Source of the DNA: a virus
IMG/VR virus record: IMGVR_UViG_3300031364_000006
Coordinates: 1 to 45,582 of that record
DNA: 45,582 nt
Strand: one strand, 5' to 3'
In this document: positions 2,901 through 24,367 of the stretch, piece by piece
Layout: each line of letters starts with the position of its first letter
Numbering within the stretch: the stretch's first letter is position 1
Translations under genes and position numbers: made by a program
Notes under the pieces: generated by a model
Database searches by the model: none
Told to the model about the DNA's origin: nothing
The model's input: the letters and a program-made list of their open reading frames with translations, nothing else

Positions 2901-3305
2901 TTAATTTAGCCGCTCAATCGTCTGACCCTTATCGTTCATTAAATAGGCTTTTTGATTTGTGACAAGTTGTACTGCATCATATTCTTTGCAGTTTTCAAGA
3001 TATAATAGAATTGATGAAGCGGGCATATCCATTTTGTTTTCGTCGAGAAGATTTTCAGAGTGGAGATTTATTCCCTCTTCTGGAATGTATGTTGCGACGC
3101 AAAATGCCTTGTTAGACTTCACGATATTTTCCGGAAGTTTATCCCCATTTAAATATTCAGCCTGGTCGTTATAACCCCGGCTGCAAATATGCAGCTCTGG
3201 ATCATATTTTTCAGCCAGTCCGTCAATATCAATATCTTTATGTGCTGCTTGCCTCACGTTGTCTATGAATTCCCATGATCCATTAGTTTCATACTTCAAA
3301 ATCAT
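2901..3305 (-). CDS. Late-region protein of unknown function, 134 residues
   Basis: An acidic, soluble protein (MILKYETNGSWEFIDNVRQAAHKDIDIDG...) with two scattered cysteines and no signal or membrane segment. It has an AAAGG ribosome binding site and is co-directional with the head genes. I do not recognise the family. Its position between capsid-associated genes and small accessory genes gives no firm clue to its job. Confidence 0.65.
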   Translation of the reverse strand: MILKYETNGSWEFIDNVRQAAHKDIDIDGLAEKYDPELHICSRGYNDQAEYLNGDKLPENIVKSNKAFCVATYIPEEGINLHSENLLDENKMDMPASSILLYLENCKEYDAVQLVTNQKAYLMNDKGQTIERLN

Positions 3306-3748: not shown

Positions 3749-4842
3749 TTTTTTGCTATCCTCTCCCTCTGATATTGGCGCGTCAGTCCAGTTTCTTTCA
3801 AAAATGTTCGCTGTTTCTTTTGCCATTCAGTCACTTTTGACTTTGCCGTAGAAGAATCAACTCCACCGGCTTCAAGTGTTGATTCTCGTTTCTTCCAGCT
3901 TCGTATCATTCTCTCATTATATCTCTGCGTTTGCTCGTTCTGATATGTTGTTTCATCGTATTTTTCTTTTGGCAGTTTGTCAGACACACCCTCCACATAA
4001 GGATAAAAGCTGTGGCGACAGTTTGCCCCGCATAGTCCAGTAACATCACCATATCCAGTAGCTTCGGCAAGGTTTTCATATTTATCATTGCTGCCGTTTA
4101 GCTTATATATTTTACCCTGCCATACCGCATGTTCTGGACGCGCGTCGCTGTGGCTTGTGACTTCAACAAGATTAGTACCGAGAGCGTCAGCGTTGTTCTC
4201 ACTAATCTGTGCAGCCGCCTGATTGACGCCTGTTACTGCCGCACGTCTTACAGCGGATTCTATCGGTGTTCTTACACCACTTGCATAATCGAATGTAGCA
4301 ACACCGTCACGGGCAAAACGGTCAACACTAAGATTAATTGCTTTGTCTTGCGAAAACCCGCCTGATTGAATTAAGAGTTGACATTGATCCATATACTTAT
4401 TTAGCTGCCCGCTTGCGTCCTGCGCAATCGTACCAGTCATATTCTTTAGCGAGTTGTTTGTTTTTAGAAGATTTGCATTAAGGACTTGTGTAAATGATTC
4501 CGCCGCAGTAAGTGGGATTGCATCTTCAGGCAATAAACCTTTCTTAATCATTTCATTTTGCAGTGTTGTATCTTGCTTGCAGGTTTTTATTCCCGCATCT
4601 TTGAACATCTGCAAAACTTCTTTTTGCGATTTACCTGTTATCTTTGCGATTTGTTCTGCAATGTATTTCTGTGACATGCCGATCTGTTCCAGTTTATATG
4701 TCTGCCATTGTGCCGAAGACATCAAATAATCAGCCTTTGAAATACGCCGTGCCAAATCCCGCATGATTGATATTTCAAGTTGCGAATATATCTCTTGCAG
4801 ATTTTCGGATACTCCGGATAAATAAGAAGGTGTTAATCCCAT
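3745..4842 (-). CDS. Phage minor capsid protein 2 (SPP1 gp7-like)
   Basis: A 365-residue protein of the minor capsid type that follows the portal gene and is thought to sit inside the head at the portal vertex. The diagnostic C-terminal part is visible: VTSHSDARPEHAVWQGKIY at about 226-244 and the GLCGANCRHSFYPY segment at about 267-280, with two Cys and a His. The N-terminal third is a long helical region. It follows the 106-residue gene without a gap and overlaps the membrane gene by four bases. Length and order match Phage_min_cap2 proteins. Confidence 0.85.
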   Translation of the reverse strand: MGLTPSYLSGVSENLQEIYSQLEISIMRDLARRISKADYLMSSAQWQTYKLEQIGMSQKYIAEQIAKITGKSQKEVLQMFKDAGIKTCKQDTTLQNEMIKKGLLPEDAIPLTAAESFTQVLNANLLKTNNSLKNMTGTIAQDASGQLNKYMDQCQLLIQSGGFSQDKAINLSVDRFARDGVATFDYASGVRTPIESAVRRAAVTGVNQAAAQISENNADALGTNLVEVTSHSDARPEHAVWQGKIYKLNGSNDKYENLAEATGYGDVTGLCGANCRHSFYPYVEGVSDKLPKEKYDETTYQNEQTQRYNERMIRSWKKRESTLEAGGVDSSTAKSKVTEWQKKQRTFLKETGLTRQYQRERIAKK

Positions 4843-6565: not shown

Positions 6566-7810
6566 TCACACCGCCTTTCTCAATCCTACCGTAATTAAAT
6601 CTTTGCCATATTTTTCAATCGCATATTCTGTCGCGTCAAGAACATCAACATTAAATGTACCATTATCAAGGCGCACATCTTCCATTGCCTTAGAATCCCA
6701 CACAGCGGATTGCAATGAATTGATTGTCTCTTTGCAGCTACGCATGATCTTAAAGCGCCCTTGCGCCATCAGCGAACACGTGAGCCGTATTCTGTTGTTG
6801 ATATCACCTTTTAAAGCGTTCCTGATTTCAATCGGAATTCTTTCGCGGATGCTTGCGACTTTAAGCCCTTGGATCAATGTCTGCTCCGCGCTGTCTGCGT
6901 AACATTCAACCACTTTGTATTTTTCTCTGCATTTACGAGCAAAGTCTATATAATCATGGTAAATATCTTCCGGGCTTTTTATTCCATCCTTGAAATGTTC
7001 ATCGAGGATTACAACTTCCTGCAAGCCTTTCGTAAATCCAACACAAATAAAAGCGTCGCCAGAACGATTCCCGCCCCAGTCAACGCCTATATTGGCAAAC
7101 CATATATTTTCAGGTGCTTTGTCGATTATGTAATCTGCCGGATGGTCTGCAAACAATCGGTATATAGCTCCCTCGGCTGCTTTCCACTGGCCTAAAATAA
7201 ACCGATCATAATAAACTGTGCCGCGATATTCATTCTTTAGATTCTCAACAAATCCCGGGTCATTGAAGGGATTATCGTCAAGGATAAACTGCATTGAATA
7301 AATGTCGGCATCCGAATCTAAAAACTTTTTGAACCAATGATTAGGATTGTCAGGATTGCTTGTACCGTCAAAGTAGCTTGTAGGTTTATCCAAACGGCTC
7401 TTGAGCATCGTGAATACGTCTTCATTCCACGTCGCTATTTCATCTCCATAGCAATATGACAGGCCGGAGCCTTGCAGCTTCGATACCTGGTTGACTTTGT
7501 CAGCGCCCAGGGCATAACATTCTTTGCCAAACAGGCGTATTTTGTTATTGCTCCCGATTGTGCCGACAAGCGCCGGGGTCCATATCTTCCGTAACGGATC
7601 TAATATATTGCGTTCAAGAGTACCCTTCGTGTTGCCAAGCAAAAGAATAAGCCCCTCGTTTGATGCGTTGCGAATGCGATAGGGGAGCTTGAAATAATCA
7701 AGATATGTTTTCCCAGAACGGGTCGCCCCATAACTTACATTCCACCTATGCGGTGTCTCAACCGATTCGTTCCATATTTGCTTTTGTTTTTTGCTGAAAT
7801 CAAGTTCCAT
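6566..7810 (-). CDS. terL: Terminase large subunit (PBSX-type ATPase-nuclease)
   Basis: The packaging motor subunit, 414 residues. The Walker A motif GATRSGKT is at residues 28-35, the Walker B-like acidic pair is in YCYGDEIATW (about 119-128), and the RNase H-like nuclease begins at VDWGGNRSGDAF (about 248-259), with further acidic residues at ECYADSAEQ and near the C-terminus (VDVLDATEYA). Length and motifs match PBSX-type large terminases. It overlaps a small membrane gene by 11 bases, an unusual arrangement between the two terminase genes. Confidence 0.93.
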   Translation of the reverse strand: MELDFSKKQKQIWNESVETPHRWNVSYGATRSGKTYLDYFKLPYRIRNASNEGLILLLGNTKGTLERNILDPLRKIWTPALVGTIGSNNKIRLFGKECYALGADKVNQVSKLQGSGLSYCYGDEIATWNEDVFTMLKSRLDKPTSYFDGTSNPDNPNHWFKKFLDSDADIYSMQFILDDNPFNDPGFVENLKNEYRGTVYYDRFILGQWKAAEGAIYRLFADHPADYIIDKAPENIWFANIGVDWGGNRSGDAFICVGFTKGLQEVVILDEHFKDGIKSPEDIYHDYIDFARKCREKYKVVECYADSAEQTLIQGLKVASIRERIPIEIRNALKGDINNRIRLTCSLMAQGRFKIMRSCKETINSLQSAVWDSKAMEDVRLDNGTFNVDVLDATEYAIEKYGKDLITVGLRKAV

Positions 7811-8078
7811 CGTTTGTCTCTCTGTATTCCGCTTCTGTTGCTAAAAGTATTTTGCCTCGCTGCATAAGCATTATAAATGCAGCAATTATATTGAAGAATG
7901 GTATTGATAATATTGCAATTGCGGGAAGTCTGCGCGATATCAATTCAAGGATTCCATACTTTTCAATTTTATGGTTTGGATATTTGTGCTTTAATTCGCT
8001 CATAATTCCCATAAAGTATAGTTTTATTACAATACCAATTATTACGGTGCTGATAATCCAAAATTTAATGAACCACAT
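7800..8078 (-). CDS. Membrane protein encoded between terminase subunits
   Basis: This 92-residue protein has two hydrophobic segments, residues about 3-25 and 52-74, separated by a basic loop (KHKYPNHKIEKYG). Its ATG overlaps the small terminase stop (TAATG) and its end overlaps terL, so it is translationally coupled to both. A membrane protein embedded in the packaging operon is atypical. It may be a moron or a superinfection-exclusion type protein; I have no motif to prove it. Confidence 0.65.
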   Translation of the reverse strand: MWFIKFWIISTVIIGIVIKLYFMGIMSELKHKYPNHKIEKYGILELISRRLPAIAILSIPFFNIIAAFIMLMQRGKILLATEAEYRETNDGT

Positions 8079-8533
8079 TACCCTTCGCCGCTTTCTTTCA
8101 TGCTTCCATTGAGTGCTTTTAGAATATTGTCAAGATGGGAAATCGTATCTTGATCGTCTTCGGCCGGATGATCGCGCCATCCTTTGAAGTTGTTTGCGAG
8201 ACTGAATTTAGCGCCCATTGCGCCGTCACGATCGAACAAACGGGACTCGGTATATTCCTCGCAACGGGCCTTCGCGCGCGTAATCGTGTCCACAAACTGT
8301 TTCTTTCCCTGATAATTCAATAGTGTTTGTCTGGAATTAAATCCTAACGCAAGTGCGAGTCCAGTAACCGTTGGAGGCCTTCTCTTCACAATTACTGGTT
8401 GCCCGTATTTATCGCATACAACGCTCCCATCAGTATCCTTCAAAATAGTTCCTTCACAATCTTTGAAATATGCGTCAATTGCTTTTTGCAGCTCTTCTGC
8501 TGTTTTGTATTTTAATGGTCTCCCAACGCTCAC
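8078..8533 (-). CDS. terS: Terminase small subunit (gp3-like DNA-packaging protein)
   Basis: A 151-residue DNA-recognition subunit that selects concatemeric phage DNA for packaging. It begins at a GTG with GAGGTG eight bases upstream (MSVGRPLKYKTAEELQKAIDAYF). The PPTVTGLALALGFNSRQTLLNY segment (about 53-74) is a helix-turn-helix-like region, followed by TRAKARCEEYTESRLFDRDGAMGAKFSLANNFKGW, characteristic of the P22 gp3/PF16677-like group. It is the first typical late structural gene downstream of the large non-coding RNA. Confidence 0.88.
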   Translation of the reverse strand: MSVGRPLKYKTAEELQKAIDAYFKDCEGTILKDTDGSVVCDKYGQPVIVKRRPPTVTGLALALGFNSRQTLLNYQGKKQFVDTITRAKARCEEYTESRLFDRDGAMGAKFSLANNFKGWRDHPAEDDQDTISHLDNILKALNGSMKESGEG

Positions 8534-9279: not shown

Positions 9280-9293
9280 TATATCCTCCATAG

Positions 9294-9318
9294 AAAAAGG
9301 ACGGCCCGAAGGTCGTCC
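9294..9318 (-). terminator. Terminator with UUCG tetraloop at the 3' end of the large RNA
   Basis: Read on the minus strand, GGACGACC-TTCG-GGCCGTCC forms an eight-pair stem with one A-C mismatch closed by a C(UUCG)G tetraloop, followed by five T residues. This defines a clean 3' end for the transcript spanning 9.3-10.2 kb and separates it from the late gene block, although read-through must occur for terminase expression unless another promoter exists. Confidence 0.85.
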
Positions 9319-10195
9319 AATATAATTATTAAACCATACCGCAGTTTTCGTCTGCGGCGCGACGTGTGCTTGCTATTTGACTGTTAGCAAGCGCAATCCG
9401 GAATGCACCAGTTAGGAGCCGATCATGCAGCTATCATTCCGTGCCTATTGCAAAATATACGTATGGTGCGCATATTCAGAGGCGTTGCGGATTTCATCAA
9501 AGATAAAGGTTATCGGGCAAGGATTTGCACCTTGCAAACTGGTTTTTCTCAGCATTAGACATTTTAATGGGTGTCACCCCTGGTGCCCCTTTTTCGCTGC
9601 GTGGTCTCAACTGCCGCGCATCCAGCAAATCGTCTGACACGACCATGCTGATTTTTATTTTGCGTTTACCTATTCCGCCACCGATAACCGTTGCTCTGGC
9701 ATTCGCCTGCCTGTAGGATTATCTACCGGCTTTGAAGCTTTTGTGCCAGCGTCAGCCTCATGCGGCCTTTGCTGACATGTTGGCCGCTACTTTCCATCAT
9801 TACGCCGACACTGCAGCTTGGCGCTCCGGATTTCGCGGTTACTCACTTGCGTATCAAGAGGGTTTCTCTATATAGCGCCTTGGTTCATCCGTGAGAAGAT
9901 GATTGGTGCCAGCTTTAAGTTAACTCGCTCTCAACTGACAAATACGCGGCGGCGCGCCTAGTTTAAGGTCTTTCCACCGCCGCATTTCAAATTCTACCGC
10001 AGACGATCAACCCTGCGGGCAACCCTTTGGCTTGCGTGTCAGCATCACCCGTTGTCGCGCCGTGCAATGCTATGTGTTCCGGTTCCACTTTAGGGCACCG
10101 GCAAGTATAAGCAGTCCGTGAGTTAATCCGCTCCGGGCCGCGTATCTGCGCCGTCGCATGGGCGGCGCGAAAAGGAGAAGAATGTGGAAAATGAA
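9299..10195 (-). ncRNA. Candidate giant structured non-coding RNA (GOLLD/ROOL-like class by size and setting)
   Basis: About 900 nt with no credible reading frame on either strand, visibly richer in G+C than its surroundings, ending at an intrinsic terminator on the minus strand. Many perfect or near-perfect stems can be read: GCTTGCT/AGCAAGC (9368-9374 with 9386-9392), GGAATG/CATTCC (9400-9405 with 9435-9440), CCGCAG/CTGCGG (9339-9344 with 9352-9357), a six-pair stem closing 9820-9879, a seven-pair GCGGCGG/CCGCCGC stem near 9949-9986, a CCGCAG/CTGCGG stem near 9999-10020 and GCGCCG/CGGCGC near 10149-10169. A tRNA-like domain lies inside. Phage-borne giant RNAs such as GOLLD and ROOL have this size and setting, but I cannot confirm membership without a covariance search. 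The 5' end is approximate and no clear promoter was found. Confidence 0.65.
9508..9689 (-). ncRNA. tRNA-Leu-like domain inside the large RNA
   Basis: On the minus strand GGTTATCGG at the 5' end pairs with CCGATAACC at the 3' end. The next bases, TGGCGGAATAGGTAAACGC, match a tRNA-Leu D arm including the GG of the D loop. At the 3' side GCAAGG-TGCAAAT-CCTTGC matches a T arm, with one change in the T loop. Between them, where anticodon and variable arms belong, is an insert of about 120 nt with further hairpins, including a five-pair arm with a seven-base loop lacking U33. No CCA is encoded. It is therefore a tRNA-like fold and not a normal tRNA gene. Confidence 0.65.
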
Positions 10196-10237
10196 AGCTT
10201 GTAATCATACTTTAGGCTTTTTCTATTTTATAGAATA

Positions 10238-10675
10238 TCACGATATAGAGTGTAATGGGGTGTCCACTTTCACTAATTGTATGGCTTTTTTGTGCATTTT
10301 AAAAACATTTTTCCCGTCAGGTGAATAATGCAATCTACGCGCAATATCTATTGGTCTCATATGATTTATGTACCAATATTCAAGCAAAATTCTAAGATTG
10401 TTATCCTCAAGAGATTTTATTGCGCCCATAATTTCCACTTTAATGTCCTGCATATCGTCTATATCTGAATTGATTTGATCGTCTATTTCTTCCATCTTTT
10501 CAATTGCTGTTTGGATTTTATTTTCTTCGCTAGCTGCTTTCGGCATATCCGATAAAGTCGGAGTTATTTTAGTCGCTTTTGACCACCACCCTGCGCGTTC
10601 ATCCAACAGGCGATCTATTTCTTTGTCTTTGTCTTTATATCGGCTTAACCATAGAATTTTTTCTTTATATGTCAT
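10238..10675 (-). CDS. DUF1492/ArpU-type late transcription regulator
   Basis: A 145-residue sigma-factor-like regulator that in related phages activates the late operon. The N-terminal coiled part (WLSRYKDKDKEIDRLLDER...WWSKATKITPTLSDMPK) is the DUF1492 signature. The C-terminal part (LLEYWYINHMRPIDIARRLHYSPDGKNVFKMHKKAIQLV, about 100-137) resembles sigma-70 region 4 with a helix-turn-helix. It is the last early gene before the large RNA and the terminase genes, the usual place for this regulator. Confidence 0.85.
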   Translation of the reverse strand: MTYKEKILWLSRYKDKDKEIDRLLDERAGWWSKATKITPTLSDMPKAASEENKIQTAIEKMEEIDDQINSDIDDMQDIKVEIMGAIKSLEDNNLRILLEYWYINHMRPIDIARRLHYSPDGKNVFKMHKKAIQLVKVDTPLHSIS

Positions 10676-23396: not shown

Positions 23397-24110
23397 TTAA
23401 TAAAATTTCATCTGAGCGTCTTCATTTGCAAAACGTTCGTCCAGCATGTGGACTGTAGTCCCATCAGGTTTAAATGTTACTGGGCTATCGTTATCCCATT
23501 TCATCATCAACGCCCAATATTTGGGGTATTGCTTGCGTAAAAGTCTTAACTGGCTTATGCTTTGGTTGTGGCAAAACCAACATCCGCCTCGCGCTGACTG
23601 TGTATAAATTGGAGATAGCAAACCTAACTTTTCCGCTCGCTCTCTTGCCACTGCTTCGGTTATGTCACACTCGACCAGTGGAGATCGCTTGCGGTCTGTG
23701 AGATTGTGGAAACGGTTTGGCTCGTCTGCGGCTATGCCAATGTAAGAAATATTGTTTTTTAGTACTTTATTTATTGCATTCATTTTAAGTTGGCTATTGC
23801 ACCAATTTCCGTGAATAAGTGGGAAGCCCCAAATAGCGCCAACTCTTTTCCCCCTTTGGAACTTTTGGTAAAAACATTCTTCATAGCTTTTCTTTGCGCG
23901 TAAATGCTCAACCTCAATTCCATACCGCTCCTTGATAATCCGGTCTGCCTTTTTCTTAAATTCCATCATTGGAGGCAAGTCTGCCGGTATGGTATCCGTT
24001 GCCATGATTTCAACGTGTACAATTCGGTCTAACGGCAGTCCGTGTTCTTTGCACATTTCAGGAATGATGATGCTGTCCTTTCCATAACTTAATGATGCAA
24101 TATATTGCGT
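23397..24110 (-). CDS. PAPS-reductase/PP-loop family protein with apparent ACG start
   Basis: A 237-residue PP-loop ATP-pyrophosphatase. If initiation is at the ACG at 24108-24110, behind a perfect AAAGGAGG, the protein begins directly with the first beta strand and the PP-loop SLSYGKDS (residues 6-13), exactly where the family puts it. The open frame continues to a TTG at 24182 without a ribosome binding site. Later features are RAKKSYEECFYQKFQRGKRVGAIWGFP, a CNSQLKMNAINK helix and a GGCWFC motif. Relatives include PAPS reductases and sulfur-modification DndC; the substrate is unknown and no Dnd partners are present. Confidence 0.8.
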   Translation of the reverse strand, partial: TQYIASLSYGKDSIIIPEMCKEHGLPLDRIVHVEIMATDTIPADLPPMMEFKKKADRIIKERYGIEVEHLRAKKSYEECFYQKFQRGKRVGAIWGFPLIHGNWCNSQLKMNAINKVLKNNISYIGIAADEPNRFHNLTDRKRSPLVECDITEAVARERAEKLGLLSPIYTQSARGGCWFCHNQSISQLRLLRKQYPKYWALMMKWDNDSPVTFKPDGTTVHMLDERFANEDAQMKFY

Positions 24111-24178
24111 TGAATCGCCTCCTTTCTGCGACGCTCCGCGCTGCCAAAGCGCCGCTATTGCACAACAACTATTTAAAA

Positions 24179-24367
24179 TCAATCGGTATGTGTAACTAAT
24201 TCATAACCGCGAGAAAGTAATTCATCACCTGTGACTTTGACGATAGTTACTTTGCCTTGCCCATTTTTGTTGTCTGGGTAATGAAATTTTTCCATCCATC
24301 CGTGTGTGGCATATCCATCTGCATAATCAATTTTTTCGTGCTTGCATTTATTCGTGTAAATATCCAT
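24179..24367 (-). CDS. First early gene, small protein of 62 residues
   Basis: Protein MDIYTNKCKHEKIDYADGYATHGWMEKFHYPDNKNGQGKVTIVKVTGDELLSRGYELVTHTD with AGGAGG upstream. It is a small alpha/beta protein with a Cys/His pair near the start. It is the first gene of the leftward early operon after a 350-base leader. No family recognised. Confidence 0.65.
   Translation of the reverse strand: MDIYTNKCKHEKIDYADGYATHGWMEKFHYPDNKNGQGKVTIVKVTGDELLSRGYELVTHTD

Follow-up and report, generated by a model that had tools for sequence, protein, structure and literature searches.

A tRNA-framed RNA element with a hypervariable insert in phages of Bacillota

The mascRNA/MEN-beta RNAs and the tRNA-like structures of plant viruses are examples of tRNA mimicry. 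Such mimicry serves to recruit tRNA-processing enzymes, and RNase P, RNase Z, the CCA-adding enzyme, LeuRS and the ribosome are listed as binders of the tRNA elbow (PMC4810234). The tmRNA has tRNA-like ends around a long RNA, while GOLLD and ROOL are phage RNAs found near tRNA islands; the expression of GOLLD has been reported to be tied to lysis (PMC12286853). The element considered here lies on the minus strand at 9510-9687 of the viral record IMGVR_UViG_3300031364_000006, which was analysed over its whole length of 45,582 nt (the window). Judged by its architecture it is very probably a noncoding phage RNA in which a portable chassis carries a cargo. Sequence comparison establishes that the acceptor stem, the D and T arms and the conserved core positions form a tRNA-shaped frame, that an independently folding, hypervariable insert has taken the place of the anticodon and variable arms, and that the unit, with borders at its acceptor ends, passes between unrelated phages. 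The RNA is structured and very common, yet Rfam 15 lacks it and the records of well-known phages, the model phage SPP1 among them, do not annotate it; its novelty is judged against that database, the annotations of named phages and the open-access literature.

Read 5' to 3' on the minus strand, the element is GG TTATCGG-UG-GCG GAAUAGGUAAA CGC-126 nt-GCAAGG UGCAAAU CCUUGC-CCGATAA CC. A preliminary description of the window had reported a tRNA-Leu-like elbow with a long insert at 9508-9689. This is confirmed by covariation far beyond chance, and the location stands, but the strand must be corrected to minus. The parts of the element are:

9510-9687, minus strand: whole tRNA-framed RNA element, 178 nt with a 7-bp acceptor (9508-9689 with the two extra pairs of this copy)
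9681-9687, minus strand: acceptor 5' strand TTATCGG, covarying with all four Watson-Crick pairs over the family
9680-9679, minus strand: U8 and G9, just before the D arm
9662-9678, minus strand: D arm GCG-GAATAGGTAAA-CGC, recovered by the T-arm-only and insert-only searches, stem covarying
9536-9661, minus strand: hypervariable insert of 126 nt at the place of the anticodon and variable arms
9645-9651, minus strand: 5' strand of insert stem P2, TCAGCAT, covarying with 9549-9555
9622-9625, minus strand: pseudoknot 5' strand CTGG (CTGG/CCAG in the window copy, other pairs in relatives)
9549-9555, minus strand: 3' strand of insert stem P2, ATGCTGA, covarying
9539-9542, minus strand: pseudoknot 3' strand CCAG, covarying
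9517-9535, minus strand: T arm GCAAGG-TGCAAAT-CCTTGC with a 6-bp stem, covarying
9510-9516, minus strand: acceptor 3' strand CCGATAA, with no CCA after it

The fold of the element is better than that of shuffled sequences (z -3.1; one of 200 was equally good), and the frame is present once in the window and in none of 200 mononucleotide shuffles of the whole window. ARAGORN and Rfam 15 gave no match in the window, including tRNA and tmRNA, and neither ARAGORN nor the Infernal tRNA model (RF00005), both proposed earlier as checks, scores the element as a tRNA.

The conservation of the frame was followed in 162 unique copies. Their selection for at least five of seven acceptor pairs biases the percentage of pairing but not the change of pair type. 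All four Watson-Crick pairs are seen at acceptor positions 1-6, the T stem covaries as well, and pairing fades past seven pairs. The nine-pair acceptor of the preliminary description is formed in this copy, but only seven pairs are under selection over the 162 copies. Alignment A3 contains the insert class of the window (19 sequences) and supports the acceptor, the D stem, the T stem, the insert stem P2 and the pseudoknot. In it 93.9% of the cells are paired and two-sided changes are found in 22 of 28 pairs; its covariation score was reached by none of 500 shuffles, and slid controls scored far lower. Within this class the D stem occurs as GCG/CGC, ACG/CGT and GTG/CAC, and the pseudoknot of relatives is formed by CGGTC/GACCG, CTGTC/GACAG, TGGAC/GTCCA, CGGGC/GCCCG or CGGCC/GGCCG.

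The core positions U8/A14, A15-U48, the D-loop GG and C56 are kept, and the final insert base, the Levitt partner of A15, is U in 99% of the 209 copies of the family. Sequence conservation indicates that the elbow positions G19-C56 and 15-48 are retained; the D-loop GG and T-loop C first noted in the window copy are kept in the family. The T arm had also been described, but its stem has six base pairs, so that the acceptor/T stack is 13 bp and not 12, and position 55 is G in the window copy and in most others (U in some). The T loops UUCGAAU and UGUAAAU are also present in the family. The enclosed stretch, first put at about 120 nt, measures 126 nt. It was further correct that U33, a normal anticodon and CCA are missing: positions 73-76 are AT-rich without CCA, and a U33/anticodon stem-loop is absent across the insert classes, those with inserts of 8-27 nt included. 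A tRNA captured as a structural module, as had been proposed, fits well with a frame that stays conserved and covarying around inserts that are wholly different. It was held that the proposal would fall if the stems were unpaired or not conserved, or if a spliceable intron left an ordinary tRNA; the acceptor, D and T stems covary, and inserts of 8-27 nt leave no room for an anticodon arm.

The family comprises 209 unique copies, nearly all in phages or prophages of Bacillota. Like the window copy, its members have a 7-bp acceptor, a D arm similar to TGGCGGAAYAGGTARACGC and a 6-bp T stem with a TGCAAAT or TTCGAAT loop, with the insert in between. Because the D-arm plus T-arm pattern alone would be circular, single parts were also used as queries, and four independent scans (D and T arms, D arm only, T arm only, insert only) reach the same family. 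The pattern scans give exact matches, counted among the matches listed, and class frequencies are therefore biased. The gapped D-arm plus T-arm pattern matches at least 100 IMG/VR stretches. The D-arm-only scan separates genuine tRNA-Leu, which has a 5-bp T stem, a UUCRANY loop and in most cases a spacing of 31-34 nt, from the element with its 6-bp T stem, UGCAAAU loop and spacing of 8-192 nt; by a strict count among the matches listed, 71 of 113 are the element, 22 are tRNA-Leu-like and 20 are ambiguous. The T-arm-only scan covered one genome per GTDB species. Among the matches listed, 57 of 96 reach at least 23/26 for acceptor plus D arm, with nine more having a looser D arm, and the positives belong to Bacillota or Tenericutes save one Methanobrevibacter metagenome-assembled genome. 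Scanning viral contigs for the insert motif alone gave at least 25 contigs, in each of which the tRNA frame was present on reading; in two of them (L320 and L336) the T loop carries an insertion.

A 49-nt frame query matches 186 annotated phage records, some of which are D-arm matches to tRNA-Leu only, as in Synechococcus phages. The frame was read in Leuconostoc Ln-9, Enterococcus EFDG1 and VEsP-1, Listeria B025 and LP-101, Lactobacillus LP65, Satyr and phiJL-1, and Bacillus SPP1, phi3T, SPbetaL4 and Grass, and none of the records of the named carrier phages annotates it as an RNA. There was no match in 5,426 E. coli genomes and no copy in Listeria A118, which was checked because of the prophage small RNA rliG. 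The open-access full-text literature holds no description of the element, and work elsewhere could exist. Six sequences of Patescibacteria (L227, L265, L278, L288, L304 and L309) resemble tRNAs of ordinary size whose T loop is the unusual UGCAAAU (G55).

The inserts are 8-192 nt long over the family and 8-27 nt in some copies, and they are hypervariable, since the 208 inserts of at least 20 nt form 152 clusters. Among 653 pairs of homologous elements, 435 lose homology within 12 nt of both borders; the pairs are not independent, as single classes supply many of them. The elements of VEsP-1 and EFDG1 show 98.6% identity across their length and no homology outside, although the two phages are a 39-kb siphovirus and a 147-kb myovirus. 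For the window element, which is 85% identical to that of Desulfosporosinus L240, homology to the two nearest relatives is confined to 9515-9682, and the alignment of relatives covers the tRNA-like unit only and does not extend into the 940 nt around it. One Enterococcus locus has conserved flanks; its insert is of the window class in L023 and a 152-nt type in VEsP-1, and in phiFL2A and IME197 the insert and part of the D arm are deleted. The acceptor sequence tracks the host genus. An acceptor identity of at least 6/7 without insert or flank homology occurs in 29 of 130 within-genus pairs versus 22 of 1471 between-genus pairs (reached by none of 2000 permutations). Four Lactobacillus plantarum phages, 36 to 131 kb in size, have the acceptor GTGCTTG, and three Listeria elements have ATACTCG. 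The frame is conserved through siphoviruses, myoviruses and large phages, and the insert differs nearly everywhere and is traded with exact borders. This pattern is usual for arms-race proteins and, to our knowledge, undescribed for an RNA.

Several different copies in a single phage occur. A large rumen phage (L022:2384-3003, and L044) has three tandem elements with different inserts; right after these, at 3003-3120 of L022, is a tRNA with an insertion in it (its Rfam tRNA match is 118 nt long), and another such match is found at 4289-4420. Some inserts themselves contain tRNA sequence. At L067:477-547 and L072:3021-3091 a complete tRNA-Ile is nested in the tRNA frame, and L085:1753-1825 is a tRNA-like stretch within the insert. 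In the inserts of L009 (2902-3060) and L070 a tRNA 3' half, read by eye, seems to precede the 5' half, as in a circularly permuted tRNA. The conserved GAGACUACG motif was also considered as group I intron-like, a reading that was dropped because the motif is too short and has no Rfam match.

The tRNA-Leu-like D arm of the window element leads directly to a comparison with tRNA-Leu, which shares the D arm sequence, U8, A14, A15-U48, the D-loop GG and C56. Unlike tRNA-Leu, the element has no anticodon or variable arm and no CCA, carries an insert of 8-192 nt, has a 6-bp T stem, mostly with G55, and varies in its acceptor. It resembles tmRNA in its tRNA-like ends around a longer RNA, but it has a full D stem, no CCA, no fixed G3-U70 and no Rfam or ARAGORN tmRNA match. 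The tmRNA match in EFDG1 is a neighbouring gene and not the element: a phage tmRNA, absent from the annotation of the record, abuts the element on its upstream side (L338:2145-2495). A link to GOLLD had been raised earlier and is not supported, as the region of the element has no Rfam match at E<=5 and its relatives align over the tRNA-like unit only. GOLLD and ROOL have no sequence or structure match to the element, which is about 60-240 nt, and their covariance models (RF02032 and RF03087) find nothing in the window. GOLLD gave no match in 28 element-bearing phage records, and control genomes gave no match either. LP65 and L003 have a separate ROOL gene in the same phage as the element. In Listeria LP-101 (L341:2312-2737) the curated rli62 and mcrA RNAs occupy the same intergenic slot, where rli62, the element and the mcrA RNA are lined up between the late activator and the genes that follow, but the element matches neither family. 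The mascRNA/MEN-beta and plant-virus structures are 3'-end domains of long RNAs or genomes, whereas the frame of the element encloses its cargo.

The usual sites are the gap between late activator and terminase, and tRNA arrays; the tRNA arrays are the site in Herelleviridae and other large phages. In SPP1 the element measures 109 nt between its acceptor ends and lies between genes 9 and 11. Of 145 copies, 21 have the late activator within 1.5 kb upstream, and none of 167 has it downstream; the terminase large subunit (TerL) lies within 4 kb downstream in 22 of 119 and upstream in none of 67. These frequencies are lower bounds because only a handful of query proteins was used. A terminator-like site lies within 100 nt 3' of 42 of 203 copies, against 18 mirrored upstream and 3 shuffled.

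With moderate confidence, the best overall explanation is a tRNA-framed late RNA with an interchangeable effector insert. The element would be transcribed together with late genes or tRNA arrays, and RNase P and 3' tRNA-processing enzymes would clamp the elbow and excise a stable small RNA with paired ends. Such excision is probable, and trimming by tRNA enzymes is the simplest account because the frame keeps the elbow features but not those needed for translation; that the RNA is a mimic recognised by tRNA-binding enzymes, as once suggested, is plausible. The frame would protect and display the insert, and the insert would be the effector, swapped under an arms race. An arms-race role is suggested by the hypervariability, the exchange within the phage pool of a host and the accessory sites (tRNA arrays and the activator-terminase gap). 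The likeliest role, though a more doubtful suggestion, is that of a decoy or inhibitor acting on tRNA-dependent machinery or close to it, in the service of host takeover or counter-defence. Tentatively, Bacillota phages could share a pool of swappable RNA effectors in a standard tRNA-shaped chassis. The frame would then mark the RNA for processing, clamp it protectively and offer a handle for recombination, and unrelated phages that infect one host genus would trade the inserts much as they trade accessory genes for proteins. Through the element, RNA-based phage weapons or counter-defences would become directly open to experiment, and it would also be a natural form of the tRNA scaffold that RNA engineering employs. 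Some points weigh against this explanation. Some tRNA enzymes may recognise the RNA less well because of its 13-bp stack, G55 and missing CCA, no link of the element to a partner protein or defence system was found, and the inserts of 8-27 nt together with the deletions in phiFL2A and IME197 show that the insert is dispensable or decays.

The short inserts would also fit a late-operon leader, in which the tRNA shape does no more than signal processing or stability, a cut by RNase P/Z gives the late mRNA a defined 5' end, and the insert is filler. The co-oriented position between late activator and terminase agrees with this, as does the fact that some copies stop 27-28 nt before the next start codon. 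About one-fifth of the copies, however, have a terminator-like site within 100 nt after them and others sit in tRNA arrays, and the insert structure is conserved within a class and pseudoknotted, which filler does not need; such a leader is rather unlikely. The frequent position beside terminase genes and near genome ends would also suit a packaging RNA associated with terminase or portal, in a role comparable to that of the phi29 pRNA. This is distinctly improbable given the copies in tRNA arrays of Herelleviridae and other large phages, the near-identical copies in unrelated phage types and the hypervariable insert.

The exact-border transfer among unrelated phages and the different copies within one phage could instead point to a selfish, tRNA-derived RNA that spreads itself with precise ends, much as tRNA-derived retroposons would if they had a counterpart in bacteria, but the element has no mobility protein of its own, prefers certain genomic sites strongly and has an acceptor linked to the host, which makes this improbable. 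An interrupted or degenerate tRNA-Leu, from which the insert is spliced to leave an ordinary tRNA, would account for the D arm, and tRNAs with insertions do occur in some large phages. It is hardly credible, being already contradicted by inserts of 8-27 nt that cannot fit an anticodon arm, by the 6-bp T stem and mostly G55 family-wide, and by the D-arm scan, which sets the family apart from real tRNA-Leu with its 31-34 nt spacing.

In the window, the tRNA-framed RNA lies among the following features:

9293-10237, minus strand: ORF-poor, GC-rich (up to 57%), folded intergenic stretch of about 940 nt holding the element (fold z -3.5)
9294-9318, minus strand: intrinsic terminator GGACGACC-TTCG-GGCCGTCC-TTTTT closing the ORF-poor stretch, read by eye and not listed by a simple consensus scan
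10238-10675, minus strand: ArpU/RinA-type late transcription activator, the upstream neighbour (phrog_36/248)
8078-8533, minus strand: terminase small subunit, downstream (phrog_606)
6566-7810, minus strand: terminase large subunit, downstream (phrog_2)

The terminator at 9294-9318 is likely to be the 3' end of the transcript of the element. BLAST of the window region against named phages gave no match, and an 80-aa flanking protein used as query had no relatives. The rest of the 940-nt stretch had none by local BLAST, and of two pattern scans one gave three matches and the other none. The parts at 9690-10237 and 9293-9508 are GC-rich, with no relatives recognised, and the whole stretch folds well (z -3.5). 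In SPP1 (L343, X89721), past locus position 3104, a small hairpin resembling an acceptor plus T arm (GGAC...GGGTTCAATTCCCGGAGTCC) follows directly 3' of the element. Elsewhere in the window, 23397-24182 encodes a PAPS reductase-like protein (phrog_424).
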